DNA of 64,000 bases from an uncultured Hymenobacter sp. (GCA_913778455.1 CAJYVK010000020.1:30126-94125); one strand, 5' to 3'. Shown: positions 48,169 to 64,000, counted from the first letter of the stretch. The notes: generated from the letters alone by a model not told the origin. Made by a program: numbers and translations.

Positions 48169-49752
48169 ATGGCAGAAGTACGCCCGGACGAAGTATCCGC
48201 TATCCTGCGGCAGCAGCTGTCCAACTTTAAATCGGCCGCTGAGCTGGAAGAAGTCGGCACCGTGCTCCAGGTGGGCGACGGCGTGGCTCGCATCTACGGC
48301 CTGTCGCACGCCCAGTCGGGCGAGCTGATCGAGTTTGAAAACGGCCTGCAAGGGCTGGTGCTAAACCTGGAAGAAGACAACGTAGGTGCCGTACTGCTCG
48401 GCGACTACTCCGAAATTCGGGAAGGTGCCACCGTGCGCCGCACCAACAAAATCGCTGCTATCCAGGTAGGCGAGGGCATCGTGGGCCGCGTGGTAAACAC
48501 GCTGGGCCAGCCCATCGACGGCCGCGGCCCCATCCAGGGCCAGACCTACGAGATGCCCCTGGAGCGTAAGGCTCCCGGCGTAATCTTCCGCCAGCCCGTT
48601 ACCGAGCCGCTGCAAACTGGCATCAAGGCTATCGACGCCATGATTCCGATTGGCCGGGGCCAGCGCGAGCTGATCATCGGTGACCGCCAGACCGGCAAGT
48701 CGACCGTGGCCCTCGACGCCATCCTCAACCAGCGCGAGTTCTACGAGCGCGGCGAGCCCGTATTCTGCATCTACGTAGCCGTGGGCCAGAAGGCCTCGAC
48801 GGTAGCCCAGGTAGTAAATGCCCTGACCAAGGGTGGCGCAATGGACTATACCGTGGTTGTAGCGGCTTCGGCCTCGGACCCCGCCCCGATGCAGTTCTAC
48901 GCTCCCTTCACGGGTGCCGCCATCGGCGAATACTTCCGCGATACGGGCCGTCCGGCCCTCGTGGTGTACGACGACTTGTCGAAGCAGGCCGTGGCTTACC
49001 GCGAGGTGTCGCTGCTGCTGCGTCGCCCCCCGGGCCGCGAGGCTTACCCCGGCGACGTATTCTACCTGCACAGCCGCCTGCTGGAGCGCGCCGCTAAAAT
49101 CAACGCTTCGGACGAGATCGCGCGCAACATGAACGACCTGCCCGAAAGCCTGAAGCCCCTGGTGAAAGGCGGCGGCTCGCTGACGGCTCTGCCGCTCATC
49201 GAAACGCAGGCTGGCGACGTATCGGCGTACATCCCGACCAACGTAATTTCGATTACCGACGGCCAGATCTTCCTCGAAACCAACCTCTTCAACTCCGGCG
49301 TGCGCCCTGCAATCAACGTAGGTATCTCGGTAAGCCGCGTGGGTGGCAACGCCCAGATAAAGTCGATGAAGAAGGTATCGGGTACGCTGAAGCTCGACCA
49401 AGCCCAGTTCCGCGAGCTGGAAGCCTTCGCCAAGTTCGGCTCGGACCTCGACGCCTCGACCAAGCTCACCATCGAGCGCGGCCGTCGCAACCTGGAAATC
49501 CTGAAGCAGCCCCAGTTCTCGCCCGTAAAGGTCGAAGACCAGGTGGCCATCATCTACGCCGCGACCAACGGCCTGCTCGACACTGTACCGGTTAACCGCG
49601 TACGGGAGTTTGAGGCCGAGTTCCGCCAGGTGATGAACGCCCGCAACCCCGACGTGCTCAAGGCTTTGAAGGCCGGCAAGCTCGACGACTCGGTAACGGG
49701 TGCTATCCGCCAGACGGCCAAGGATGTAGCTGCTGGCTACGCCGCTAAGTAA
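48169..49752 (+). CDS. atpA: F0F1 ATP synthase subunit alpha
   Basis: [24 protein letters not shown] Walker [44 protein letters not shown]. Confidence 0.98.
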
Positions 49753-49756
49753 TTAA

Positions 49757-49848
49757 TAGATTATGAGTTATGAATTATGAATTGGCAAGCGGTTGCCTCC
49801 CCCGAGGCTAGCGTGTAATTCATAATTCATAATTCAAAACTCATAATT
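49757..49848. repeat. Intergenic word-hairpin repeat, family ATGAATT
   Basis: ATTATGAGTTATGAATTATGAATT ... AATTCATAATTCATAATTCAAAACTCATAAT between atpA and atpG. Confidence 0.8.
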
Positions 49849-49855
49849 GAAGTAA

Positions 49856-50758
49856 ATGGCAAGCTTAAAAGAAGTTCGCTCGCGTATCCAATCGGTTTCG
49901 AGCACGCAACAGATTACCAAAGCCATGAAAATGGTGGCGGCGGCTAAGCTGCGCCGGGCTCAGGACAACATTACCCGGATGCGCCCCTACGCGCAACGCC
50001 TCACCAGCATCCTGGCCAACCTGACGCGCACGACCACCGACGAGGTGGTGAGCGAGTACGGGCAGGTACGCGAAGTGCGCCGGGTGCTCATCATCGCCAT
50101 TACCTCCGACCGGGGGCTGGCCGGTGCCTTCAACGCCAACGTATTCAAGGGGGTGAACGCGCTGATTGCCCAGCGCTACGCCAACCTGCCGCAAAGTGCC
50201 ATCTCGGTGATGGCCATCGGGAAGAAGGCGCACGACTACTATGGTCGCCGCAGCTTCCAGCGGGTGGGCGACTACACGCACGTATTCGGCAAGCTTTCGT
50301 TTGACACGGTGCGCGTGGCGGCAGAAGAGGCCATGCGTGGCTTTACCGAGGAGCGCTACGACCAGGTGGTGATGGTGTACAACGAGTTCAAAAACGTGGC
50401 TACCCAGGTAATTCAGGCCGAGCAGCTGTTGCCGCTCGCGCCCACCGAAGTGCCCGCCGGTACGCCCAGCGCCACCGCGCCCGACAACAGCATCGACTAC
50501 ATCTTCGAGCCCAGCAAGGAAGAGATTATTCAGACCCTCATCCCGCAAAGCCTCAAGATTCAGCTCTACAAGGCGGTGCTGGAAAGCAACGCCTCGGAGC
50601 ACGGGGCCCGCATGACGGCAATGGACAAAGCCACCGACAACGCCGGTGAGCTGTTGAAGTCGCTCAAGCTGACGTACAACCGGACGCGCCAGGCGGCCAT
50701 CACGACCGAGATTCTCGAAATCGTAGGTGGGGCCGAAGCGCTGGCGGCTGGCCAGTAA
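49856..50758 (+). CDS. atpG: F0F1 ATP synthase subunit gamma
   Basis: MASLKEVRSRIQSVSSTQQITKAMKMVAAAKLRRAQ; ITSDRGLAGAFNANVFK. Confidence 0.97.
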   Translation: MASLKEVRSRIQSVSSTQQITKAMKMVAAAKLRRAQDNITRMRPYAQRLTSILANLTRTTTDEVVSEYGQVREVRRVLIIAITSDRGLAGAFNANVFKGVNALIAQRYANLPQSAISVMAIGKKAHDYYGRRSFQRVGDYTHVFGKLSFDTVRVAAEEAMRGFTEERYDQVVMVYNEFKNVATQVIQAEQLLPLAPTEVPAGTPSATAPDNSIDYIFEPSKEEIIQTLIPQSLKIQLYKAVLESNASEHGARMTAMDKATDNAGELLKSLKLTYNRTRQAAITTEILEIVGGAEALAAGQ

Positions 50759-50779
50759 ACGATACTCCCAAACAACGCG

Positions 50780-50816
50780 AAAGCGCCGGTGCCCTAGCGG
50801 CACCGGCGCTTTTTTT
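50780..50816 (+). terminator. Intrinsic terminator after atpG
   Basis: aaagcgccggtgccctagcggcaccggcgctttttt. Confidence 0.92.
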
Positions 50817-50935
50817 ATTAGTGACCTGGTAAGGGGTAATTATTGGGCCGCTCAACGATGAAACAAGGCTAATTAATGAGCTGTTAATAGTATTTTTGAG
50901 TAGGTGGCGCTACGCAGGCTGCCTGCACCCGCACG

Positions 50936-52876
50936 TTGAGTATAAAAAAACACTTATTCATTCTGTGGCTGGGCTTGGTGCTGAGCAGCGTAGCGCGAGC
51001 GCAGGGGCCACCGGTACCGCTGGCCCGCATGACCGTCATGCGCGATAGTATCGGGCGGCTGCTGGCTACTCAGCCCCGGCTTGATACGCAACGAGTGGGG
51101 CGCCTGAATTCGCTGGCCTTCCTTTTACGCACCAACGCGGCCCCGGAGGCCGAGCGCCTGGCCCGGCAGGCGCTGGCGCTGGCCCAGCGGCTACAGTTCA
51201 CCCAGGGCCTGCTGGATGCTCATTTCAACGTGGGTTATTGCCTGCGGGCCCGTAACGCGTACGATTCGGCGGTCTATCACTCGCAGATGGCGTTGAAGCT
51301 GAGTGTGCAGCTGGGTAGCCGTTATAAAGAAACCCGTGCTTACTACAACCTGGCCCGGGTATATACCGAGCAGGGCAACTATGCGGCGGCCCTAGGGATG
51401 AGCCTGAAGGGGCTAGCCGTGGCGCGGGCACTGCGTGACGCTCGGACCGAGTTATTTCAACTGGTGCAGGCGGCGCGGATTGAGCTGGCGCTGGGCGAAT
51501 ACGACGCGGCCCGTACCCACGTGGAGGCGGCCCGGCGCCTGATACCAGCCGCCCACGATCCTTTGGGTACGGGATACGTGTACCAGGCCCTCGGCGACAT
51601 CAGCCGCCGGCAGGGGCAGTGGCTGGCCGCTCGTAACTACTACGGCCAGACCGCCGCCAACTACGGTAAAGTATACAATGCCCGCGGCCTGTTACCCGTA
51701 GAGTTAGCGCAAGCCGACATGACCAATCGCTTGGGCGACCATGTGGCCGCCCGCCGGGCGGCCCGGAGCTTACTGCGTCGTGCCCAGGCTACGGGTACTC
51801 CCGAGCAGGTAGCCCAGGCCGCCTTGCTGCTCGCCCAAACCTGGCTGGCTACTGCCCGCCCCGACAGTGCCCAGCGCGCCGCAGCCCGCAGCTTGATTAC
51901 GGCGCGGGCTGCTCATCTGCGTCTGATAGTTCGCGACGCGGCCCTGGTGCTGGCCCAGGCCAACGATGCGCTGGGGCAAGGACGCGCGGCCTACCGTTAC
52001 CAAGTGCTAGCCAGCGCCTATGCCGATAGCATAGCGGGTGAAGAAACCCGTCGCCGGGTGGCCGCCCTCGAAGCCCAGGCAACGCACAGCCAGGAGCAGA
52101 GCCAGATTCGGCTGCTGCGCCAGCAGGCCCGTTTACAAACGCAGCAGCAAGAGCTTGATCGGCTACACTACCGCCAGGCGGCGGCGGTGCTCATCGGTGG
52201 GGCCTGGCTGGTGCTGGCGCTGGCGGGCTACTTGCTGTGGCGCTACCGCCGCCGCGAGGCCCGCCGCCAGGAGGCCCTGCGGACCCGTATCGCGGCCGAC
52301 CTGCACGACGAGGTCGGTAGCATGCTCACCCAAATTTCTATGCAGAGTACGCTGCTGCGGGAGGGCCGCTACGCCCCGTCGCAGCAGCAGGCCTACCTCG
52401 ACCAGATGGCCGACGCCAGCCGCCGCGCCGCCCGCCAGATGAGCGACGCCGTGTGGAGCATCGACGCCCGCTACGACTCGGCCGCCAGCTTGCTTGACCG
52501 CCTGCGCGACCACGCCCACGAGGTACTGCCCCCCGCCGGCCTCGAAATTGACTTCGGGGCCGAGGCGGCCGTGGCAACGGCCGCCGTACCGCTGGCTACC
52601 CGCCAGGCGCTCTACTCCATCTATAAAGAAGCCCTGCACAACGTGGTAAAACACGCCCGGGCCCGCCAGGTACAAGTGCGCCTGCGCCTGCCGGACGGCC
52701 AGTTGGAACTCACCGTCCGCGACGACGGCCGGGGTAGCGCCGCCGCCAGCCGACCCGGCGGCCAGGGCCTGCCCAACATGCGCATGCGCGCCCAGGCCGT
52801 GGGCGGTACCGTGCAAGTAGAAGCCAGCGGCCCGGCCCAGGGCCTGGGCCTGGTAGTGCGCCTGCCCCTCCGGTAG
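50936..52876 (+). CDS. TPR-containing sensor histidine kinase, TTG start
   Basis: TPR repeats then TM (AAVLIGGAWLVLALAGYLLWRY) and IAADLHDEVGSMLTQISMQSTLL HisKA_3; NVVKHARARQVQVRL; DDGRGSAAA. Confidence 0.92.
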   Translation: MSIKKHLFILWLGLVLSSVARAQGPPVPLARMTVMRDSIGRLLATQPRLDTQRVGRLNSLAFLLRTNAAPEAERLARQALALAQRLQFTQGLLDAHFNVGYCLRARNAYDSAVYHSQMALKLSVQLGSRYKETRAYYNLARVYTEQGNYAAALGMSLKGLAVARALRDARTELFQLVQAARIELALGEYDAARTHVEAARRLIPAAHDPLGTGYVYQALGDISRRQGQWLAARNYYGQTAANYGKVYNARGLLPVELAQADMTNRLGDHVAARRAARSLLRRAQATGTPEQVAQAALLLAQTWLATARPDSAQRAAARSLITARAAHLRLIVRDAALVLAQANDALGQGRAAYRYQVLASAYADSIAGEETRRRVAALEAQATHSQEQSQIRLLRQQARLQTQQQELDRLHYRQAAAVLIGGAWLVLALAGYLLWRYRRREARRQEALRTRIAADLHDEVGSMLTQISMQSTLLREGRYAPSQQQAYLDQMADASRRAARQMSDAVWSIDARYDSAASLLDRLRDHAHEVLPPAGLEIDFGAEAAVATAAVPLATRQALYSIYKEALHNVVKHARARQVQVRLRLPDGQLELTVRDDGRGSAAASRPGGQGLPNMRMRAQAVGGTVQVEASGPAQGLGLVVRLPLR

Positions 52877-53021
52877 TGGTGAGATGGTGAGGTGGTGAAA
52901 TGGTGAAGCAGCAAGTTATTATCTACTATTTTCTAATTCACCAACTCACCACTTACCACTCACCACCTCACCACTCACCACCTCACCACCTCACCATTTC
53001 ACCACTCGCCACTCGCCGCCT
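52877..53021. repeat. Intergenic word-hairpin repeat, family GGTGA/TCACC
   Basis: GGTGAGATGGTGAGGTGGTGAAATGGTGAAG (left) and ...CACCACCTCACCACCTCACCATTTCACCAC... (right). Confidence 0.8.
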
Positions 53022-53067
53022 CACATCTTTATGCGATAGCGCCGTGTAGGACAGGCACCGACCTTTG
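53022..53067 (+). promoter_or_regulatory. Shared promoter-like block, copy 0 (LuxR regulator)
   Basis: CACATCTTTATGCGATAGCGCCGTGTAGGACAGGCACCGACCTTTG. Confidence 0.6.
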
Positions 53068-53072
53068 CCCCC

Positions 53073-53714
53073 GTGATACCACTCGGCATTATCGAAGATC
53101 AGGCTGCTATTCGGGAGGCGCTGTGCGAATACCTCGGCGCACAGCCGGAGTTTGACTGCGTGCTGTGCGCGGCCTCGCACGAGGAGTTTATGGCCGGGCT
53201 GGCGGGGCTGGCCACGCCCCCCACGCTGGTGCTCTCCGATATTGGCTTGCCCGGGCGCTCGGGCATCGAGGGACTAAGCGTGCTGCGGCAGGTGCTGCCC
53301 GAGGCCGAAGTGCTCATGCTGAGCGTATACACCGATGCCGAGCGCGTGTTTGAGGCCCTGCGGGCGGGGGCGGTGGGCTACCTCGAAAAAACCACCCCGC
53401 TGCCCCTGCTCAAAGAACACCTGCTGCAAGTAGCGGCTGGTGGCTCGCCCATGAGCCCAAGCGTGGCCCGCCACGTGACGCGCTACTTCGCGCCCCGGCC
53501 CGTGGTGCCCGCTGCCGACAACCTGACCCCGCGCGAGCAGGAGATCGTACGGGCCATTGAGGATGGGCTGAGCTATAAGCTCATCGCGGAGCGCCTGCAC
53601 GTGAGCCTTGATACCGTGCGCTCGCACATTCGGCAGGTATACCGCAAACTGCAAGTCAATTCCAAAGCCGAGATAATGGCCCGGGCTCAGAACCGCTCGC
53701 GCCTGTCCTGGTAG
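53073..53714 (+). CDS. NarL/LuxR-family response regulator, GTG start
   Basis: IPLGIIEDQAAIREAL receiver; LTPREQEIVRAIEDGLSYKLIAERLHVSLDTVRSHIRQVYRKL HTH. Confidence 0.95.
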   Translation: MIPLGIIEDQAAIREALCEYLGAQPEFDCVLCAASHEEFMAGLAGLATPPTLVLSDIGLPGRSGIEGLSVLRQVLPEAEVLMLSVYTDAERVFEALRAGAVGYLEKTTPLPLLKEHLLQVAAGGSPMSPSVARHVTRYFAPRPVVPAADNLTPREQEIVRAIEDGLSYKLIAERLHVSLDTVRSHIRQVYRKLQVNSKAEIMARAQNRSRLSW

Positions 53715-53745
53715 CAGCCCGCCTTCCGGCTATTCTTTTCACGCT

Positions 53746-53797
53746 GCCCTTTCTGAGCTATGTACCGCCCCCGCTTCGCGTCCGAGGTGGGGGCGGC
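53746..53797. repeat. Dispersed 19-mer plus GC-rich hairpin downstream of the regulator
   Basis: GCCCTTTCTGAGCTATGTA (also on the minus strand at 10555-10573) followed by CCGCCCCCGCTTCGCGTCCGAGGTGGGGGCGG. Confidence 0.55.
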
Positions 53798-53939
53798 TAG
53801 TTAGGGTAGGGCCAGCGGGGAGCAATTCGGCAGCAGTATGGGATTAAAAGAATTCTTAGCCTGCCCTGCCGAGTCGTCCGCAAGCATCGCGGTGGCTGCT
53901 TGCCTAGGCTTGTCTGACCGTTCGCCCGTCTGGCTGGGC

Positions 53940-54030
53940 CAGTTACTAAGCCAGGCTGAGCAATCAGAACTGGTTTTATATAATCACATCATTATGCGAT
54001 ACCGCCGCGTGGGGCTGGCGCCGTCCTTTG
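53940..54030 (+). promoter_or_regulatory. Shared promoter-like block, copy 1 (surface protein gene 1)
   Basis: CAGTTACTAAGCCA - 31 nt - CACATCATTATGCGATACCGCCGCGTGGGGCTGGCGCCGTCCTTTG. Confidence 0.65.
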
Positions 54031-54068
54031 GGGCCTGGTTCAGCTAACTACTCTGTACTGCTTTTGTG

Positions 54069-56723
54069 ATGACAAACTTCTGCTCTCTGCTGCCCGCGCG
54101 TCGGCTGGCAATCCTGCTGGTACTGGGCCTGGGCGGGGCATTCGCTCGCCCCGCCCAGGCCCAGGCCCAGGCCACCTTCGGCACCGCGACGACGTATTCG
54201 ACGGGCGCTGACAGCTACCCCCACGACGTGGCCCTGGTCGACGTAAACCGGGATGGCAAGGTCGATATACTTACGCCCCTCTCCGGGACCGTGGGCGTGC
54301 AGCTAGGCACGGGCACGGGTACCTTCGGGACCATCGCCACCTATGCGTCGGGAATGAGCTCGATGAATTCCGACCGCATTATGGTCACCGACGTGAGTGG
54401 CGATGGCAAACCCGACGCCATAATGGCCCCCTACAAATACGGCAGCACCGCCGGCGTGTCGGTGCTGCTGGGCACGGGTAATACCACCGGCACCTTCGGG
54501 ACCGCCAGCGTCTACAGCGCGGGGGCTTCTACCAGCACCACCAATGGTATCAGCAGCCTGGCGGTGGGCGACGTGAATGGCGACGGCCGGCCCGACATCG
54601 TGACAGCCAACAACGGGGGCGATGCGGGCCGGGTGGCCGTGCTGCTGGGCACCGGCGGCGGTGCCTTCGGGGGAGCTACCCTGTATGTGGCCGGCACCAG
54701 CACCGCCCTGATGGAAGTACTGCTGGCTGATGTGAACGCCGATGGCAAGCTCGATATTCTGACTTCCAACTCAACTACCGATGCGGTGGGCGTGCTGCTG
54801 AATACGGGCACGGGTACGTTTGGGGCCGCAACCGCGTACTCCAGCTTTGCCACCAACTCAGCGGGTACAAAGGGTGGCCAGCAGGGTCTGGCCGTGGCCG
54901 ATGTGAATGCCGACGGCAAACCCGATATTCTCACTACCAGCTACTACGGCAGCGTGTTCGGGGTGCTGTTGAACAACGGCAACGGCACCTTCGGGGCGAT
55001 GACTAAGTACCCGACCGGTGCTAACTCCCCGACCCGCCTGAACGTAGCCGATATCAATGGCGACGGCCAAATCGACCTGCTGGGGGCTGACCCCAACGGC
55101 GGCACCGCCTCCGCCTTGGTAGTGCTGCTGGGCACGGGCGGGGGCACTTTTGGCACCGCCACAACCTACAAATGCGGTTACGCCCCCAACGGTGTGCGGG
55201 CCGCCGACCTCAACGGCGACGGTAAGCTCGACATGGTGTCGGCCAACAACGGCAGTAACTACGTGGCCGTGCTGCTCAACACCACCGTGCTACCGACCGT
55301 CAGCACCAGCGGGGCGGCCACGGCCGCGGGCTCGTACAATTCCATCACCGTGAACGCCGGCAGCACCCTCACCCTGACGGGTAATACCGTCGTAACGGGA
55401 GCCTTGACCATCGCTAACGGCGCTACTTTCAACGACAACGGCTTCACGGTGTACGGCGGCGGCTCGTTTACAGCGGCGGCCGGCGCCACCCTGAACATCA
55501 CGAATGCGGCGGGTATCAGCAGCAGCGGCTATACCGGGGCGGTGCAGGTCACGGGCCCGCGCTCGTTTTCGACCGATGCCAGCTACGGCTACAGCGGCAC
55601 GGGGGCGCAGAGCACGGGTACGGGCCTGCCCGGCACGGTGCGGGCGCTCACGCTCAACAACAGCGCCGGCCTCACGCTCAGCAGCCCGGTTACGGCCAGC
55701 ACGGCCGTCACGCTCACCAGCGGCGTGCTGACCACCGGGGCCAACGCAATTACCCTGAGCCCCACCGCCACCCTCAGCGAAACCACGACCAGCTTCGTAA
55801 CGGGTACGGTGCAAACCACGCGCGCCCTCTCCACGGCGGACCGCACCGAAACCTTCGGCGGTATGGGCCTGAGCCTGACGCCCAGCGGCAGTACGCTGCC
55901 GGGTAGCACCCTGGTGCGGCGCGTCACGGGTACGGCCCTGACTGGGATGGGCGGCAGCCCAAGCATCAAGCGCTACTACGACATTCAGCCCACCGTCAAC
56001 AATAACCTGAACGTGACGCTCATCCTGAGCTACCTCGACAGCGAGCTCAACGGCATCAGCGAAAGTGACCTGCACCTCTACAAATCGGAAAACGCTGGTG
56101 CGACGTGGTTTACGATGGCCGGTGCCAGCTACAACGCCACGGCCAACACGGCCAGCCTCGGCGGTATTCGGCAGTTTTCGTACTGGACGCTGGGCAGCGC
56201 CCGCGCCCCGCTGCCGGTGCAGCTCACCAGCTTTACGGCCCAGGCCCAGGGCCCGGCCGTAGCCCTGGCCTGGGCTACCGCCACCGAGTTCGGCGCGGCC
56301 CGCTTTGAAGTAGAGCGCAGCTTCGACGGCCGGGCTTTCGAGCGGGTGGGAGAGGTAGCGGCGGCGGGCACCAGCAGCGGGCCCCGCGCCTACGCGTACC
56401 TCGACGCGGTCCTGCCAGCCGGGGTCACTACTCTCTACTATCGCCTGCGGCAGGTAGACCAGGATAGTACCGCCACCTACTCGCCGGTGCGCCCGGTGGC
56501 CGTGGCCGCCGGCCAGCCCTTGCTGTATCCGAACCCGACGGTGGGCACCGCCACCCTGGCTGGTGCCCCCGTGGGTACCGCCGTACGGGTGTACAACGCG
56601 CTGGGCGACCTGGTGCTCACCACCCGCACCGATGCCGCCGGGACCGCTACGCTGACCTTGCCCAACGGCCTGTATCTGGTGCGCTGCGGGGCGGCCCCCG
56701 CCCTGCGCCTGGCCGTGGAGTAG
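54069..56723 (+). CDS. Surface protein 1: FG-GAP/VCBS repeats, central module, T9SS C-terminal sorting domain
   Basis: Repeated DVNGDGKPDI...VLLGTGTGTFG; C-terminal LLYPNPTVGTATLAGAPVGTAVRVYNALGDLVLTTRTDAAGTATLTLPNGLYLVR. Confidence 0.9.
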   Translation: MTNFCSLLPARRLAILLVLGLGGAFARPAQAQAQATFGTATTYSTGADSYPHDVALVDVNRDGKVDILTPLSGTVGVQLGTGTGTFGTIATYASGMSSMNSDRIMVTDVSGDGKPDAIMAPYKYGSTAGVSVLLGTGNTTGTFGTASVYSAGASTSTTNGISSLAVGDVNGDGRPDIVTANNGGDAGRVAVLLGTGGGAFGGATLYVAGTSTALMEVLLADVNADGKLDILTSNSTTDAVGVLLNTGTGTFGAATAYSSFATNSAGTKGGQQGLAVADVNADGKPDILTTSYYGSVFGVLLNNGNGTFGAMTKYPTGANSPTRLNVADINGDGQIDLLGADPNGGTASALVVLLGTGGGTFGTATTYKCGYAPNGVRAADLNGDGKLDMVSANNGSNYVAVLLNTTVLPTVSTSGAATAAGSYNSITVNAGSTLTLTGNTVVTGALTIANGATFNDNGFTVYGGGSFTAAAGATLNITNAAGISSSGYTGAVQVTGPRSFSTDASYGYSGTGAQSTGTGLPGTVRALTLNNSAGLTLSSPVTASTAVTLTSGVLTTGANAITLSPTATLSETTTSFVTGTVQTTRALSTADRTETFGGMGLSLTPSGSTLPGSTLVRRVTGTALTGMGGSPSIKRYYDIQPTVNNNLNVTLILSYLDSELNGISESDLHLYKSENAGATWFTMAGASYNATANTASLGGIRQFSYWTLGSARAPLPVQLTSFTAQAQGPAVALAWATATEFGAARFEVERSFDGRAFERVGEVAAAGTSSGPRAYAYLDAVLPAGVTTLYYRLRQVDQDSTATYSPVRPVAVAAGQPLLYPNPTVGTATLAGAPVGTAVRVYNALGDLVLTTRTDAAGTATLTLPNGLYLVRCGAAPALRLAVE

Positions 56724-56749
56724 GCGAGTCAATTAATCCCCTTGGCTTC

Positions 56750-56790
56750 GCAAAAGCCCCCGCGGCCCCCGGTCGCGGGGGCTTTTTGCG
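56750..56790. terminator. Intrinsic terminator
   Basis: gcaaaagcccccgcggcccccggtcgcgggggctttttgc. Confidence 0.9.
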
Positions 56791-56855
56791 CAAGCAGGGC
56801 TGGCTGCGGGCGGAATCTCACTAGTCATCCGCGCCATTTACCCGCTCTAGCAGGT

Positions 56856-56946
56856 CAGTCACTAAGCCAAAGCGGCCAGCCAGCACGGCTCTCGCATTTT
56901 CACATTTTCATGCGATACCGCCGCATGGTTGAGGCTTCGTGCTTTG
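56856..56946 (+). promoter_or_regulatory. Shared promoter-like block, copy 2 (surface protein gene 2)
   Basis: CAGTCACTAAGCCA - 31 nt - CACATTTTCATGCGATACCGCCGCATGGTTGAGGCTTCGTGCTTTG. Confidence 0.65.
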
Positions 56947-57014
56947 TAGCCAATTGCTGCGCAAGTTCTGGCCGCAGCTCATGAATGCCAGGCTTTATCT
57001 CTTCCCTTTTTAGT

Positions 57015-60000
57015 ATGAGAAACCTCTTCTCCCTGGTCTTCCCCACGCGGGGAGCCACCCCGCTGGCCCACCCGCTGGCGGCGCTGGGGCTGTTGCTGGC
57101 TACGGCCGGCGCGGCCCAAGCCCAGACTACTACCAACTTCGCCTACACCGGCGGCACCCAGACCTACACCGTGCCGGCGGGCATTACCAAGCTCAACGTG
57201 GTCGCCACTGGGGGCGGGGGCGGCGGCAACCGGGGCAACAACAAGGGTGGCCTGGGCGCCGTGGTGCAAGCCACCGTGACGGTCGTGCCCGGCGAGGTGC
57301 TCACTGTAGTGGTGGGCGGCCGCGGAGTCGATAGCAACAGCAACGGCGGCCAGGGCGTCAGCGGGGGCGGCGCGGGCGGCTACAACGGCGGCGGCACCGG
57401 CGCCTACACCGGCGGCGGCGGCGGCGGGGCCACCGACCTGCGCCGGGCCACGGCCAGCGGTAGTACCGGCGACTACTTCACCTCGCGCAATGCGCTGCTG
57501 GTGGCCGGTGGCGGCGGTGCGGCCGACAGCGGCCCCGCCGGCGGGGCGGCCGGTACGCCCAACGGCGGCAACGGCGTGAGCGGGCAGGGCGGCCCAGCTG
57601 GTCAGGGCGCCACCACCACCGCCCTCGGGGGCGGCTACCTGGGCTCGAACGGCACGGGCGGCAATTGTAACCCCAATAACTTCAACGCAGCAGGCGGTGG
57701 CGGCTACTACGGCGGCGGCGGTGCCGGCGGCCCGGCGGGCTCTTTTGCCACCGGCCTCAACGGCGGGGGCGGCGGCTCGTCATACGTGTTGCCCACGGGC
57801 AGCAGCAACGTGAGCTACAGCCTCGCTGGGGCTCTGGGCAATGGGGCGCTGGCCATCACGACGGTGCCAGCGCCCACCAACAACGCACTGGCCTTCGATG
57901 GTAGCAACGACTACGTGAGCCTGGGAAGTCCGGCCGTGCTCAGCAACCTAGGCCCGGGCGGCTTCACACTTGAAGCGTGGGTTTACTACGACGGGCGGAG
58001 CGGAGCCAGCTCGATTATCCGCAAAACCGGCGACTATAACCTGTATATCAACAACGGGGTGCTGGGGGCCGAGGTATGGCCCCAGGGCGGGGGTAATGCC
58101 GCCTGGCGCGTAGCCGCCGGCTCGGCCAGCCTCGCGGCCAATCGCTGGAACCACGTGGCCGCCACCTGGACGCCGGCCACCAGCACGTTTGCCTTTTACG
58201 TCAATGGCGTGGCCGACCCGGTGGCCAGCAGCAGTACGGGCAGCATCAGCGGTAGCGAGGGCCTTTCGCTGGGTGCCTCGACCACCTACGGCAACTACTT
58301 GGGAGGTCGCCTTGATGAGGTGCGCATCTACAACACGCCGCTGACGGCGGCCCAGGTGCAGACCGATATGTTTAGCACCAGCTCGGCCCTGCCGGGTAGC
58401 CAGAAATACTACGCCAACTTCGACCAGGGCACGGCCGGCGGCAACAACGCGGGCAATACGAGTCTGACCGACCAGAGCGGTAACAACAGCACGGGTACGC
58501 TGAATAACTTCGCCCTGACGGGTGCCAGCAGCAACTTCGTGCGTAGCTTCCCCACCATCACCGGTATCTCGCCCACTACGGGCAACACCGGCAGCAGCGT
58601 AACGCTAACCGGTACCAACCTGACCGATGCCACGGGCTTCGCCTTCAACGGCACGGCCGTGTCGCCATTCACCACGCCCGCCGGCGATTTGACGGCCACC
58701 GTAGCCGTGCCCAGCGGCGCCACGACCGGTCCGGTAAGCGTGTCGTCGGCCTCGCTGACCAAGTACAACGGCCCCACCTTCACCGTGACGTACCCCGACC
58801 TGGTGGTGAATACGACCGCGACTATCCCGGCCGGTACCTACAACAGCATCACCGTCAACAGCCCCGGCGTGGCTACGCTGGCCGGCAACGTGACGGTGAA
58901 TACGAGCACCACCGTGAACAGCGGGGCGACGCTCAACGACGGCTGCTTCGTGCTCAGCGGCGCGGGCGACTTCACGCTGGCGTCGGGTGGTACGCTGGGC
59001 ATCTGCAACGCGCAGGGCCTGAACAACACCACTGGAACGCTGCAAAATACGGGCTTCCGCAGCCTGTCCATCGACGCTACTTACGTCTATAACGGCACGG
59101 CGGCGCAGGTTACGGGCGGGCAGCTGCCTTACCAGGTGCGCAACCTCACCAGCACCAACAGCAATACCGTTACGCTGAGCCAGGCGCTCAACGTCGCGCA
59201 GGTGCTCACCCTTAACGCCGGCAACCTGAGCCTGAACGGCCGGGCGCTGACGCTGCTCAGCAGCGCCAGCGGCACCGCCCTGGTGGCCAACCTCGGCTCG
59301 GGCTCGATCAGCGGTAACGTAACGGTACAGCGCTACATCGACCCTAGCTTGAATTCCGGCCTGGGTTATCGCCACCTGGTATCGCCCGTGAACGGAACCT
59401 CGGTGTCGGCCTTCGGCTCGGGTGGTACGGCGCTGGTGGTCAACAATGCCTACAACACGGTGGCCAATCCCGGCACCGTGACGCCATTCCCCACCATTTT
59501 CAGCTACGACCAGAGTCGCCTGGCTACGTCGCCCGCTACCACGCTGTCTGCTTTTGACAAGGGCTGGGTATCGCCGACTTCGCTGAGTGAGCCGGCCGCG
59601 CCGGCTACGACGGGCTACGCAGTGCAGCTCACCGGCGGCCAGACGCTCAGCTTCACCGGGCAGGTTGCCAACAGCGGGGGCAGTACGACGCTGAGCCGCA
59701 ACAGCGGCGCTACGGCCGCCGATGCGGGCCTGAACCTCATCGGTAACCCCTATCCCTCGCCGCTCGACCTGAGCACCATCACGACCGGCCAGCGCACGAA
59801 CGTAGACGCGGCGTTCTACGTCTTCGAAAGCACCTCGCAGTACGGCGGTAACTACCGCAGCTACGTCAACGGCGTAGCCAGCACGGGCGGTACCTCCCTC
59901 GTGGGTACGGCTCAGGCGTTCTTCGCTCGCGTCACGGCGGGCCAGACCAGCGGCTCGCTTGCGCTCACTAACGCCAACCGTATCACTACTTACAGCCAGC

Positions 60001-60740
60001 AGTCGGCCGTGCGTCGCACCGCCGCCGACCCCCGCCCGCTGGTGCGCCTCGACCTGCAAGGGGCCAGCGGCCCGGCCGATTCCTTCACGGCCTACGCTGA
60101 AGCCGGGGCCACGGCGGGCTTCGACCGCGACTTCGACGCGGCCAAGCTGCCCAACCCCACGGGCCTGAACCTGAGCAGCGCCACGGCCACCGACCACCTA
60201 GCCATCGACGGCCGCCCGGCCTTCACCCCGACTACCGTGCTGGCCCTGAGCGTGGGCGTGCCCGCCGCCGGTACCTACACCCTCACCGCCGCCACCCTGG
60301 CCAACCTGCCCGCCGGCCTCACGGCCACGCTGCGCGACGCCGCTACCGGCCAGCTCACCCCGCTTACCGCCGGCACCTCGTACCGCTTTAGCGTCACGGC
60401 CGCCGAGGCCACTGCTCTGCTCACCAACCGCTTCACGCTGCAATTCAGCTCGGCCACGGCCCTGGCTACCACGGCCAGCCTGAACGCCGCCGAGGTGACG
60501 GTATACCCCAACCCGGCCCACGGTCGCTTCACGGTGCTGGTACCGGCCGTGGCCGCCGCCAGCGCCGTGCAGGCCGAGCTGCTCAACACGCTGGGCCAGG
60601 TAGTGCGCCGCCAGTCGGCGGCCCTGCCCGCCGCTGGTGCCACGCTCACGGTCGAGACCGCTGGGCTGGCCTCGGGCGTGTATACTCTGCGCCTCGCGGC
60701 CGGGACCAGCACGCTCGCCAAGCGTGTAGTGCTTCAGTAA
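57015..60740 (+). CDS. Surface protein 2: glycine-rich domain, LamG-like domain, IPT/TIG, central module, T9SS C-terminal sorting domain
   Basis: GGGGGGNRGNNKGGLGAVVQATVTVVPGEVLTVVVGGRG; LamG-like FTLEAWVYYDGRSGASSIIRKTGDYNLYINNG; TIG PTITGISPTTGNTGSSVTLTGTNL; C-term VTVYPNPAHGRFTVLVP. Confidence 0.9.
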   Translation: MRNLFSLVFPTRGATPLAHPLAALGLLLATAGAAQAQTTTNFAYTGGTQTYTVPAGITKLNVVATGGGGGGNRGNNKGGLGAVVQATVTVVPGEVLTVVVGGRGVDSNSNGGQGVSGGGAGGYNGGGTGAYTGGGGGGATDLRRATASGSTGDYFTSRNALLVAGGGGAADSGPAGGAAGTPNGGNGVSGQGGPAGQGATTTALGGGYLGSNGTGGNCNPNNFNAAGGGGYYGGGGAGGPAGSFATGLNGGGGGSSYVLPTGSSNVSYSLAGALGNGALAITTVPAPTNNALAFDGSNDYVSLGSPAVLSNLGPGGFTLEAWVYYDGRSGASSIIRKTGDYNLYINNGVLGAEVWPQGGGNAAWRVAAGSASLAANRWNHVAATWTPATSTFAFYVNGVADPVASSSTGSISGSEGLSLGASTTYGNYLGGRLDEVRIYNTPLTAAQVQTDMFSTSSALPGSQKYYANFDQGTAGGNNAGNTSLTDQSGNNSTGTLNNFALTGASSNFVRSFPTITGISPTTGNTGSSVTLTGTNLTDATGFAFNGTAVSPFTTPAGDLTATVAVPSGATTGPVSVSSASLTKYNGPTFTVTYPDLVVNTTATIPAGTYNSITVNSPGVATLAGNVTVNTSTTVNSGATLNDGCFVLSGAGDFTLASGGTLGICNAQGLNNTTGTLQNTGFRSLSIDATYVYNGTAAQVTGGQLPYQVRNLTSTNSNTVTLSQALNVAQVLTLNAGNLSLNGRALTLLSSASGTALVANLGSGSISGNVTVQRYIDPSLNSGLGYRHLVSPVNGTSVSAFGSGGTALVVNNAYNTVANPGTVTPFPTIFSYDQSRLATSPATTLSAFDKGWVSPTSLSEPAAPATTGYAVQLTGGQTLSFTGQVANSGGSTTLSRNSGATAADAGLNLIGNPYPSPLDLSTITTGQRTNVDAAFYVFESTSQYGGNYRSYVNGVASTGGTSLVGTAQAFFARVTAGQTSGSLALTNANRITTYSQQSAVRRTAADPRPLVRLDLQGASGPADSFTAYAEAGATAGFDRDFDAAKLPNPTGLNLSSATATDHLAIDGRPAFTPTTVLALSVGVPAAGTYTLTAATLANLPAGLTATLRDAATGQLTPLTAGTSYRFSVTAAEATALLTNRFTLQFSSATALATTASLNAAEVTVYPNPAHGRFTVLVPAVAAASAVQAELLNTLGQVVRRQSAALPAAGATLTVETAGLASGVYTLRLAAGTSTLAKRVVLQ

Positions 60741-60798
60741 GTTTTCCACCACGGCCGGTCCCGGTTCGGGGCCGGCCTTTCCTCCAGCTTTTTTTCTC

Positions 60799-61002
60799 AT
60801 GAATAAATTTTTCCTGACTGCCGCCCTGCTGCTGAGCGTGGGCGGACTAGCCCAGGCCCAGAGCCCCAGCACGGGCGGTCCTACGCCCACGGCCCCCGAC
60901 CCCACGCAGGTACCCGTCGATGGTGGGGCCTCGCTGCTGCTGGCCTCGGGCGTGGTGTACGGCCTGCGCCGCCTGCACGCCCGACGTCGCGCTTCCCGCT
61001 AG
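60799..61002 (+). CDS. Small secreted protein with PID-CTERM-like C-terminal sorting signal
   Basis: MNKFFLTAALLLSVGGLAQAQ signal; C-terminal PVDGGASLLLASGVVYGLRRLHARRRASR (motif, TM helix, basic tail). Confidence 0.75.
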   Translation: MNKFFLTAALLLSVGGLAQAQSPSTGGPTPTAPDPTQVPVDGGASLLLASGVVYGLRRLHARRRASR

Positions 61003-61066
61003 GGGAGGGGGCATAAAGCATTTCTAGAAAATCACATACGGGTTTCAGAAGCTAGTTAAGCTAGCT

Positions 61067-61116
61067 AAACAGGCTGTCATTGCCCGCGGAGCGGAGCAGT
61101 GGCAGCCTGTTTTAGT
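61067..61116. repeat. Intergenic palindrome related to the GTCATTGCGAGCGAAGCGAAGCAATC class
   Basis: AAACAGGCTGTCATTGCCCGCGGAGCGGAGCAGTGGCAGCCTGTTTT. Confidence 0.6.
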
Positions 61117-61355
61117 GTAGCCGTGCGGGGGCGCTTATTTCGCGCCGCTCGTGCTGGAAGCCGATGTTAGGCCGGCTGAAATATCCTGTCGCTGCCGTGG
61201 AAAGAGCAGTGAGAGCCAGTCGCGCCGAATGAATGTCCTCAAATGAGGTACAAGCGCGACTTTCATCAGCTTAGCCGGAAGGCGGAGCTTTGTCCTCGTT
61301 TTGCTGGTGGCCCAGTCGGGCCGCCGAGGCTTGCACTTCCTTTTTCTATTTATTG

Positions 61356-64000
61356 ATGACAAACTTCTCCTCCCTGGCCCGATGGCAGCGGGCTACGCAG
61401 CCCCTGGCAACGTTGGGGCTAGTGCTGGTTACGGCCAGCGTAACCCAGGCCCAAAGCCCGGCCCCGGTGGCCACTTTCGCGCCCTACACTACTTATGACG
61501 CGGGCGCGGGCAACGCGCCCCACGGCCTGAAAGTGTCCGACGTGAACGGCGACGGCAAGCTCGATGTCGTGACGATCAATACCGGTAGCAGCACGATAGG
61601 CGTATTGCTGGGTAATGGCGATGGCACCTTCGGAACCGCCACAACCTATGGGCTAGGCTTGAGTACGGGTACCACGCCCCTCGACCTTACGGTGGCCGAC
61701 ATGAACAATGACGGCAAGCTCGACGTGATTACTGTTTATAAAGGGAGTGGCAAAGGTGGCGTTGGCGTATCGCTGGGCAACGGCGACGGAACCTTCCGGG
61801 TCGCCACTAACTACGATACGAACAATAACCTATTCATCTATCCCGATCGCGTTGCGGTAGCCGACGTAACCGGCGACGGCAAACCTGATGCGTTGGTAAG
61901 TGTTAGAGGCGGTAATAAAAATGCGGTAGGGCTGCTACTCGGTAACGGTGACGGTACGTTTCAGGCGAGTAAAACCATTTCGGCTGGGCAACCTACGTTG
62001 GCTATCGCGGTAGCCGATGTGAATGCCGACGGCAAGACCGATGTGCTGGCGGGCGGAGCTATTATGGACCCGGTTAGCGTCCTTCTGAGCAACGGCGACG
62101 GGACTTTCGTATCCTCGCGCAAGTCCTCGGGCACCAGTGCCGGTATTTACGACGCGGCGGTGGGTGACCTCAACGGTGACGGTAAGCTGGACTTGGCGAT
62201 CGTTAATACTGTCTCAAGATTTGGTACCTTACAAGGTGATGGGAAGGGAGGTTTCCAGGCAAGCGCAAGCTTTTCGATAGATTCGCCGGTCGGCATCTCC
62301 CTGCTCGATGTAAATGGCGACGGGCTGACCGATGCGCTCATTGCGAGTGACTGGTCGAAAAAAGTCAATTTTTTGGGGGGCAACGGCACCGGACTTACGT
62401 TTGCTAGCTACGCGCAGTACTCCGTGGGTACTGCTACCAACACCTCTACCCTCGGTGGCCTCGCGGTGGCCGACGTCAACCGCGACGGCAAACCCGACGC
62501 GCTCACGGTTGATTACAGTACCAACCAAGTGGCGGTGCTGCTGAACACGAGCGCCTACCCGGCCCCCACCCTCAGCACCGTTAGCCCCGGCAATGGCCCG
62601 GCCGGTACGCAGGTTACGCTCACGGGTACCTACCTGGGTAGCGCCACGGGCGTAAGCTTCAACGGTACGGCCGCCACCTTCACGGTGGTGAACGCGACTA
62701 CCATCCGCGCCACCGTGCCGGCGGGTGCCTCCAGTGGCAACGTGACCGTAACTACGCCCGGCGGTACCACCAGCGGGCTGGCCTTTACCGTGCCCGCCGA
62801 CTTGGTGATTACCTCGCCTACGGACGTGCTGGGGGGCACCTACAACAGCATCACCGTCAATGGTCCCGGCCTGGCCGTGCTCAAGGGCGACGTAATGGTG
62901 CTGGCGGGCATTACCATCAACAACGGCGGCGGACTCGTGGACGAGTGCCACGTGATCAACGGGGCGGGCAGCTTTACGCTGGCGGCAGGTGGCCAACTGG
63001 CCACCTGCAATCCTGACGGTATCAGCGCCAGCGGGGCCACGGGTGCCGTGCAGGTAACGGGCACTCGCTCGTTTTCACCCGATGCCAGCTACGGCTACGA
63101 CGGCAACGGCCCGCAAATCACGGGCTCGGGGCTGCCCAGCCAGGTGCGCAACCTAGGCGTCGCCAACCAAGACGACGTTACGCTGAGCCAGGCCACGAGC
63201 ATTGCGCAAACCCTGGTGCTGGCCGGCGATGGCGACCTGGTGCTCAACGGCCAGGCGCTCACGCTGCTAAGCAGCGCCAGCGGCACGGCCCTCATCGAGA
63301 ACCGCGGAATGGGCGAAGTAGATGGCGCAGCCACCATCCAACGCTACATCGATCCCAGCCTGAACCCCTCGACCGCGGCCAACCCCGGGGGCAAAGGCTA
63401 CCGCCACTACAGCAGCCCGGTGCAGAACACGACCGTGGCCGACCTGGCAACGACCACCTTCACGCCCGTGCTCACCCAGAGCTACAACACGAGCGCCACG
63501 CCGGGCACCACCACGCCCTTCCCCAACGTGTTTGGCTACGACCAGAGCCGCCTGGCCACGGTCAGCAGCAACTACTCAGCCTTCGACAAAGGCTGGGTGG
63601 TGCCGGCCGCGGCCACTACCGCGCTGGTGCCGGGCCAGGGCTACGCGGTTAACATCGCTGGCACCGAGCTGGTCGACTTCGTGGGTACGCCCAACAACGG
63701 CGACCTAACCGTAACCCTGAGCCGCAACGCCGACGCCACGGCCGCCGACGCGGGCTGGGCGTTGGTGGGCAACCCCTACCCGTCGCCGCTCGACTATGCC
63801 CAGCTGCAAAACCTCGACCTGCTGGGTATCGACCGGGCTATGTACGTGCAGCAGAGCACCGGCCAGTACGCGGGCCAGTACCGTAGCTACGTCAATGGCA
63901 ACAGCACGGGTGGGGGCATTCGCCCGGCCGCCGAGGCCTCGCTCATCGCTGCCGGTCAGGGCTTTTTCGTGCGGGTAAGCCAGGGAGAAACCAGCGGTAG
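61356..64000 (+). CDS. Surface protein 3 (3' truncated by window): FG-GAP/VCBS repeats, IPT/TIG, central module
   Basis: MTNFSSLARWQRATQPLATLGLVLVTASVTQAQ; repeated DVNGDGKLDVVTI...LLGNGDGTFG; TIG PTLSTVSPGNGPAGTQVTLTGTYL; open to window end so absent from the ORF track. Confidence 0.9.
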   Translation, partial: MTNFSSLARWQRATQPLATLGLVLVTASVTQAQSPAPVATFAPYTTYDAGAGNAPHGLKVSDVNGDGKLDVVTINTGSSTIGVLLGNGDGTFGTATTYGLGLSTGTTPLDLTVADMNNDGKLDVITVYKGSGKGGVGVSLGNGDGTFRVATNYDTNNNLFIYPDRVAVADVTGDGKPDALVSVRGGNKNAVGLLLGNGDGTFQASKTISAGQPTLAIAVADVNADGKTDVLAGGAIMDPVSVLLSNGDGTFVSSRKSSGTSAGIYDAAVGDLNGDGKLDLAIVNTVSRFGTLQGDGKGGFQASASFSIDSPVGISLLDVNGDGLTDALIASDWSKKVNFLGGNGTGLTFASYAQYSVGTATNTSTLGGLAVADVNRDGKPDALTVDYSTNQVAVLLNTSAYPAPTLSTVSPGNGPAGTQVTLTGTYLGSATGVSFNGTAATFTVVNATTIRATVPAGASSGNVTVTTPGGTTSGLAFTVPADLVITSPTDVLGGTYNSITVNGPGLAVLKGDVMVLAGITINNGGGLVDECHVINGAGSFTLAAGGQLATCNPDGISASGATGAVQVTGTRSFSPDASYGYDGNGPQITGSGLPSQVRNLGVANQDDVTLSQATSIAQTLVLAGDGDLVLNGQALTLLSSASGTALIENRGMGEVDGAATIQRYIDPSLNPSTAANPGGKGYRHYSSPVQNTTVADLATTTFTPVLTQSYNTSATPGTTTPFPNVFGYDQSRLATVSSNYSAFDKGWVVPAAATTALVPGQGYAVNIAGTELVDFVGTPNNGDLTVTLSRNADATAADAGWALVGNPYPSPLDYAQLQNLDLLGIDRAMYVQQSTGQYAGQYRSYVNGNSTGGGIRPAAEASLIAAGQGFFVRVSQGETSG

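Follow-up and report, generated by a model that had tools for sequence, protein, structure and literature searches.

A conserved promoter block at NarL-type response regulator genes and secreted surface-protein genes of Hymenobacter, probably read by the regulator itself

Known systems and layout of the block

Within the NarL/FixJ family of response regulators (RRs), DegU and its relatives bind as dimers to inverted-repeat operators through their recognition helix (PMC9263151). The promoters read by the primary sigma factor of Bacteroidota hold a TTTG at -33 and a TAnnTTTG at -7 (PMC7366714, PMC9723704), the -33 TTTG not being detectable in F. johnsoniae (PMC7366714), and leaderless mRNAs or very short leaders represent only ~4–6% in the mapped Bacteroidota transcriptomes (PMC7366714, PMC9723704). 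PorX/PorY-SigP from Porphyromonas gingivalis is a two-component system linked to the T9SS (PMC4800418, PMC8265659). A literature search on Hymenobacter regulators, or on the regulation of surface proteins like those described below, yielded no relevant paper.

The window (the whole stretch of 64,000 nucleotides analysed here, from an uncultured Hymenobacter sp.) belongs to a 5.4-Mb draft genome, in which it is part of contig C20. A direct check of its sequence located three copies of a block formed by the inverted repeat CACAT-N4-ATGYG, the element ATANCGCCG in the -33 position, and a -7 box [GT]ACCTTTG. The features of the region are the following:

50936..52876, + strand: sensor histidine kinase with TPR repeats, HisKA_3 and HATPase_c (Pfam; conserved neighbour), presumed partner of the RR
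53022..53035, + strand: operator dyad CACAT-CTTT-ATGCG of the RR promoter (sequence; covariation between the arms and with the RR DNA-binding domain)
53036..53044, + strand: ATAGCGCCG, putative element in the place of the -33 box, kept across RR clades with differing arms
53060..53067, + strand: -7 box GACCTTTG, with the RR start codon GTG 5 nt further
53073..53714, + strand: NarL/LuxR-type RR (receiver and GerE HTH) with a GTG start, proposed reader of the block (Pfam; PDB match)
53985..54030, + strand: second copy of the block (dyad 53985-53998, ATACCGCCG 53999-54007, -7 box to 54030)
54069..56723, + strand: secreted FG-GAP repeat protein with a T9SS C-terminal sorting domain, target (Pfam FG-GAP_3, Por_Secre_tail)
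56901..56946, + strand: third copy of the block (dyad 56901-56914, ATACCGCCG 56915-56923, -7 box to 56946)
57015..60740, + strand: secreted Laminin_G_3/glycine-rich protein with a T9SS C-terminal sorting domain, target (Pfam)
61237..61292, + strand: palindrome CCTCAAATGAGG, then TTTG after ~40 nt, before the next FG-GAP surface gene (ATG near 61356)

At all three sites, 9 nt separate the start of CACAT from that of ATG, and 33 nt the start of ATG from that of TTTG. The initial annotation had described the block and this spacing correctly but missed the dyad symmetry of CACAT and ATGYG; it also placed the TTTG properly, without drawing the consequence of a start codon located 5 nt past it. In the window, exact ATGCGATANCGCCGNNT is present only at these three sites, and four matches are found when up to two mismatches are permitted, versus 0.44 expected in shuffles. 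No gene of a known type overlaps any of the three. In the region between the kinase and RR genes (52877-53020), a GTGGTGA run is followed by TCACCAC repeats, a possible large hairpin or variable repeat.

Promoter architecture

The assignment of TTTG to the Bacteroidota -7 element agrees with the genus, as the box equals the ordinary [GT]AnnTTTG of Hymenobacter: upstream of block-less genes, TAnnTTTG is enriched 21-fold and GACCTTTG 14-fold with respect to coding sequence. The first position of the box is G, not T, in most sites. The loss of the usual -33 box was likewise rightly noted, with no recognisable -33 TTG in the block promoters and ATANCGCCG in its place; this element persists across RR clades although the arms differ, and it may act as a -33-position element. 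The distance from ATG to TTTG is 33 nt in the RR promoters, and the gap is constant across the 89 sites of the relaxed search described below, conservation being limited to the spaced motif and not extending to the spacer. The operator adjoins or overlaps the -33/-35 region (relative to a predicted transcription start) at a fixed distance from the -7 box, with the dyad centre ~35 nt upstream of TTTG, or roughly at -44 if the RR mRNA begins at the GTG. Since the RR start codon lies 4–5 nt past TTTG, this mRNA is probably leaderless.

We propose, with a probability of about 0.8, that the block acts as a composite promoter and that its reader is the RR 53073..53714, which would function as a class-II-type activator together with the primary-sigma polymerase, giving rise to autoregulation and to a surface-protein regulon. 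The missing -33 TTTG makes it most likely that the RR is an activator placed beside the -33 region. The opposite role, in which the RR binds the dyad as an autorepressor and also represses the surface genes from a site overlapping the -33 region, where it would obstruct RNA polymerase, is unlikely; in its favour, the dyad and ATANCGCCG span the -33 region and many regulators repress their own genes from such positions. However, no -33 TTG box can be recognised in these promoters, which suggests that they need an activator, and the distance to the -7 box, constant at 33 nt among the paralogs, fits a contact with the polymerase better than occlusion.

The initial annotation had also considered an alternative sigma factor. 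An ECF-type factor, with GATANCGCC as the -35 and CGACC/CGTCC as the -10, would be in line with a bipartite motif of constant spacing and with the CG[AT]C found directly before TTTG in many sites; moreover, the T9SS genes of P. gingivalis use the ECF factor SigP (PMC4800418), and a CGT-box ECF-like motif is present at T9SS genes of F. psychrophilum (PMC9723704). Nevertheless, we regard such a factor as improbable. An ECF promoter would show a -10 distinct from the primary-sigma box, and the box found here is the ordinary -7 of the genus, with [GT]ACCTTTG widely enriched upstream of block-less Hymenobacter genes; any contact made by a sigma factor would fall downstream of the symmetric arms, and the variable letters track the DNA-binding domain of the RR, as shown below.

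Distribution of the block and genes downstream

A genome-wide search for the block and its downstream genes, as suggested in the initial annotation, revealed five strict copies in the source genome. The two located outside the window, on contigs C48 and C329, each precede a signal-peptide-like gene start, and the C329 site has a spacing of 18 instead of 19. At the latter (L005, C329 from 1355), the downstream gene shows an in-frame TAG within the signal-peptide region, which points to a possible pseudogene or an error. Conservation in relatives was confirmed as well: 101 Hymenobacter genomes (source included) hold 26 strict sites, compared to 0 for the reversed control, and many variants appear when two mismatches are allowed. 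A relaxed bipartite form (CATNNNNATGNNATANCGNCG-N18-CTTTG, one mismatch, inner letters free) retrieved 89 sites in 34 of the 101 genomes, with 2 in the control; as sites were found by pattern, the core letters appear more conserved than is perhaps true.

Among named sequences, the pattern matched 15 stretches of Hymenobacter (the culturable H. metallicola among them), one of Solirubrum, and 14 scattered others, the last being near chance (we estimate ~7 for an 18-letter pattern in 257 Gb). In 292 genomes sampled from the order, the relaxed form is confined to Hymenobacter and a second genus of its family, and outside that family the block stays at background level. No plasmid similarity was found.

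In the strict set, the next gene encodes either an RR of one family, starting 4–5 nt past TTTG, or in most of the remaining cases a protein with a signal peptide, located ~27–140 nt away. The two window targets start 38 nt (54069..56723) and 68 nt (57015..60740) past TTTG, and both hold a signal peptide and a C-terminal sorting domain, the Por_Secre_tail match of the former falling slightly under the Pfam cut-off. About 60 non-RR sites of the relaxed set were retrieved for analysis of the downstream gene, and most precede genes for long secreted proteins. By a crude and lenient hydropathy rule, which also counts membrane proteins, 48 of 62 targets look secreted versus 149 of 444 background genes (34%), these 62 still including one or two RR-like sites (L258, L252). 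L252, in genome G019, is followed 4 nt further by a gene for a 111-residue protein, in which the RR HTH is retained but most of the receiver domain is missing.

A Pfam scan of 40 long targets detected Por_Secre_tail in 13 (several of the others were truncated by the retrieved stretch), Laminin_G_3 in 10, FG-GAP in 7, and fn3 in 6. With 76 T9SS-tail matches in total in the source genome, the block covers a small subset of them. Other targets include a kinase gene (L224), tail-collar-like proteins, two glycosyltransferases, and a membrane protein of ~65 residues.

The promoters of the targets are similar to those of the RRs encoded in the same genome. Fifty targets come from genomes that hold a block-bearing RR; for these (targets identical to RR promoters were kept), the nearest same-genome RR promoter differs on average in 2.84 of 19 letters, a mean that rises to 5.49 under permutation of whole genomes (0 of 3000 permutations), and the variable dinucleotide coincides with that of the own-genome RR in 37, compared to 18 under permutation. 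For instance, ATGCCAT is found in G070 at the RR and at the next gene, ATGTCAT at the RR and targets in both G048 and G024, and GATG replaces GATA in G022 at the RR and two targets. Duplicated promoters could be a partial source of this likeness.

Covariation of the operator with the response regulator

The RR of the window matches Response_reg (4.4e-15) and GerE (2.9e-15) in Pfam, and its closest PDB match is NarL. A survey of about eighty regions around RR homologs identified ~58 paralogs with a version of the block directly before their own start codon, nearly all 4–5 nt past TTTG. Nearly all RRs above ~55% identity share the same layout: an inverted repeat, ATANCGCCG or a relative of it, [GT]ACCTTTG, 4–5 nt, and the start codon. 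In 38 of the ~58 block-bearing loci, the gene immediately before the RR, in the same orientation, encodes a related kinase, and the HisKA_3 kinase upstream is presumed to be the RR partner. The kinase gene of the window lacks a block of its own, and that of the relative G070 has one. The operators vary with the recognition helix as follows:

Helix TVRSHIR: operator CACAT/ATGYG or ATGCT
Helix TVRNHIR: operator AACAT/ATGTC
Helix TVKNHLR: operator CCCCC/GTGTC
Helix NTVR[AT]: operator CGCAT/ATGCG
Helix TVRGHIK: operator CCCAT/ATGT

Several of these variants coexist within one genome. A second operator class is exemplified by an RR paralog of the source genome (contig C398), whose gene is preceded by TACCTCATTTGAGG with the palindrome and spacing seen at 61237; the only other exact copy of TACCTCATTTGAGG in the source genome is that of the window (61237-61250). 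In the genus, CCTCANNTGAGG occurs 38–41 nt from CTTTG at 17 sites (control 0), although five of them (L302, L303, L304, L308, and L312, in G008, G018, G073, and G094) carry a differing extended repeat, CCTCATCTGAGGAGGGGAG, and may be something other than the RR palindrome. At L305/L313 (G076) and L317/L318 (C398:10734-10833), CCTCA-NN-TGAGG lies between divergent promoters with CTTTG 38–39 nt away on both sides, and one such operator may serve two divergent genes.

With receiver distance controlled for, operator distance correlates with the distance between DNA-binding domains (partial r 0.43; 0 of 2000 permutations), while the reverse, operator versus receiver with the DNA-binding domain held constant, gives a partial r of 0.12. 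The two arms also covary at letters not fixed by the search, the inner free pair being complementary in 74 of 120 (51 expected) and the next pair in 55 of 120 (39.5 expected). The column with the most excess information on the variable dinucleotide after ATG is residue 184, in the recognition helix, which aligns to the second V of the NarL TVKVH. In NarL, residues of this helix contact DNA. Receiver columns rank high too, as expected from shared ancestry. Residue 184 changes ~10 times on the receiver-domain tree, with two to five pairs of independent switches and only two well-supported N/non-N contrasts, mostly agreeing; a code based on this single residue was discarded as proof, since the switches are too few and not significant alone.

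Relatives carry altered versions of the block, and these vary in step with the protein that is very probably their reader. The covariation of the operator with the DNA-binding domain, along with the likeness between targets and their own RR promoter, makes the RR itself the most probable reader, and the covariation points to binding of the inverted repeat through the recognition helix. This comparative evidence lends strong support to the claim, made in the initial annotation, that the LuxR regulator itself reads the block, is autoregulated, and controls T9SS surface proteins.

A close RR is present in 16 of the 17 genomes with at least two sites, versus 26 of the 84 other genomes, and absent in 9 of the 34 block-bearing genomes. 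In six of these nine (L220, L227, L228, L234, L240, and L250), the sole site precedes the conserved gene for the ~65-residue membrane protein; three of the six encode a distant RR of the TVRSHIK type with CACAT-N4-ATG upstream of its own gene, at a spacing of 34 and with TATCTTT, and this distant RR with a TVRSH helix could explain their case. Another of the nine, G082, is a 90%-complete draft in ~600 contigs. The nine genomes would fit a different transcription factor that reads all the blocks, the RR being merely one of its targets, but this is very improbable, as it accounts neither for the variation of each paralog's operator with its own DNA-binding domain nor for the coexisting variants.

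Finally, a non-regulatory block (a small conserved peptide starting MRYRR, an RNA leader, or a dispersed repeat) is scarcely credible even though its ATG falls in the MRYRR frame at two of the window sites, given that the spaced motif alone is conserved and that, at RR genes, the mRNA could contain almost none of the block. The small frame ATGCGATAC... runs through the window sites and is interrupted by TAG at the first one and at C48; the peptide reading of ATGCGATACCGCCG (MRYRR) was rejected because of TAG stops at two of five sites, and that of an RNA family because 49000-64000 gave no Rfam match.

Proposed mechanism and comparison with known systems

According to the activator model, the upstream kinase would phosphorylate the RR, whose phosphorylated dimer would bind the inverted repeat CACAT-N4-ATGYG. 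The bound RR would then aid the primary-sigma RNA polymerase at promoters with a normal -7 box, [GT]ACCTTTG, in which ATANCGCCG replaces the -33 box, raising the expression of its own gene and of a regulon whose products are secreted surface proteins, often exported through the T9SS. In the source genome, this regulon would comprise the two next genes and two elsewhere.

On a broader scale, Hymenobacter may hold radiating kinase-regulator pairs with private operator codes set by the helix, lying among arrays of secreted surface proteins, with ATANCGCCG as a -33 substitute used solely with these regulators, a picture for which we see about even odds. If true, different signals would lead to different cell coats. 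The block predicts which secreted surface proteins switch together in Hymenobacter, and the ~58 natural regulator-operator pairs make the code between NarL-type recognition helix and DNA readable and testable. The data also suggest that Bacteroidota have a type of activator-dependent promoter with another element substituted for the -33 box.

Compared to the primary-sigma promoters of Bacteroidota, the block shares a fitting -7 box, [GT]ACCTTTG, but its first letter is mostly G, and the -33 TTTG is replaced by ATANCGCCG and the RR dyad. PorX/PorY-SigP controls secretion-machine genes via an ECF sigma factor, whereas the link found here is between a NarL-type RR and cargo genes, without any sigma factor being implied. 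As in NarL, DegU, VraR, LiaR, and DosR, the RR consists of a receiver and a GerE-type HTH; in contrast, the operator sequence, ATANCGCCG, the putatively leaderless autoregulated gene, and the surface-protein regulon are undescribed for NarL/FixJ RRs in the literature found. The mechanism is a known one; the operator family and the regulon are new.
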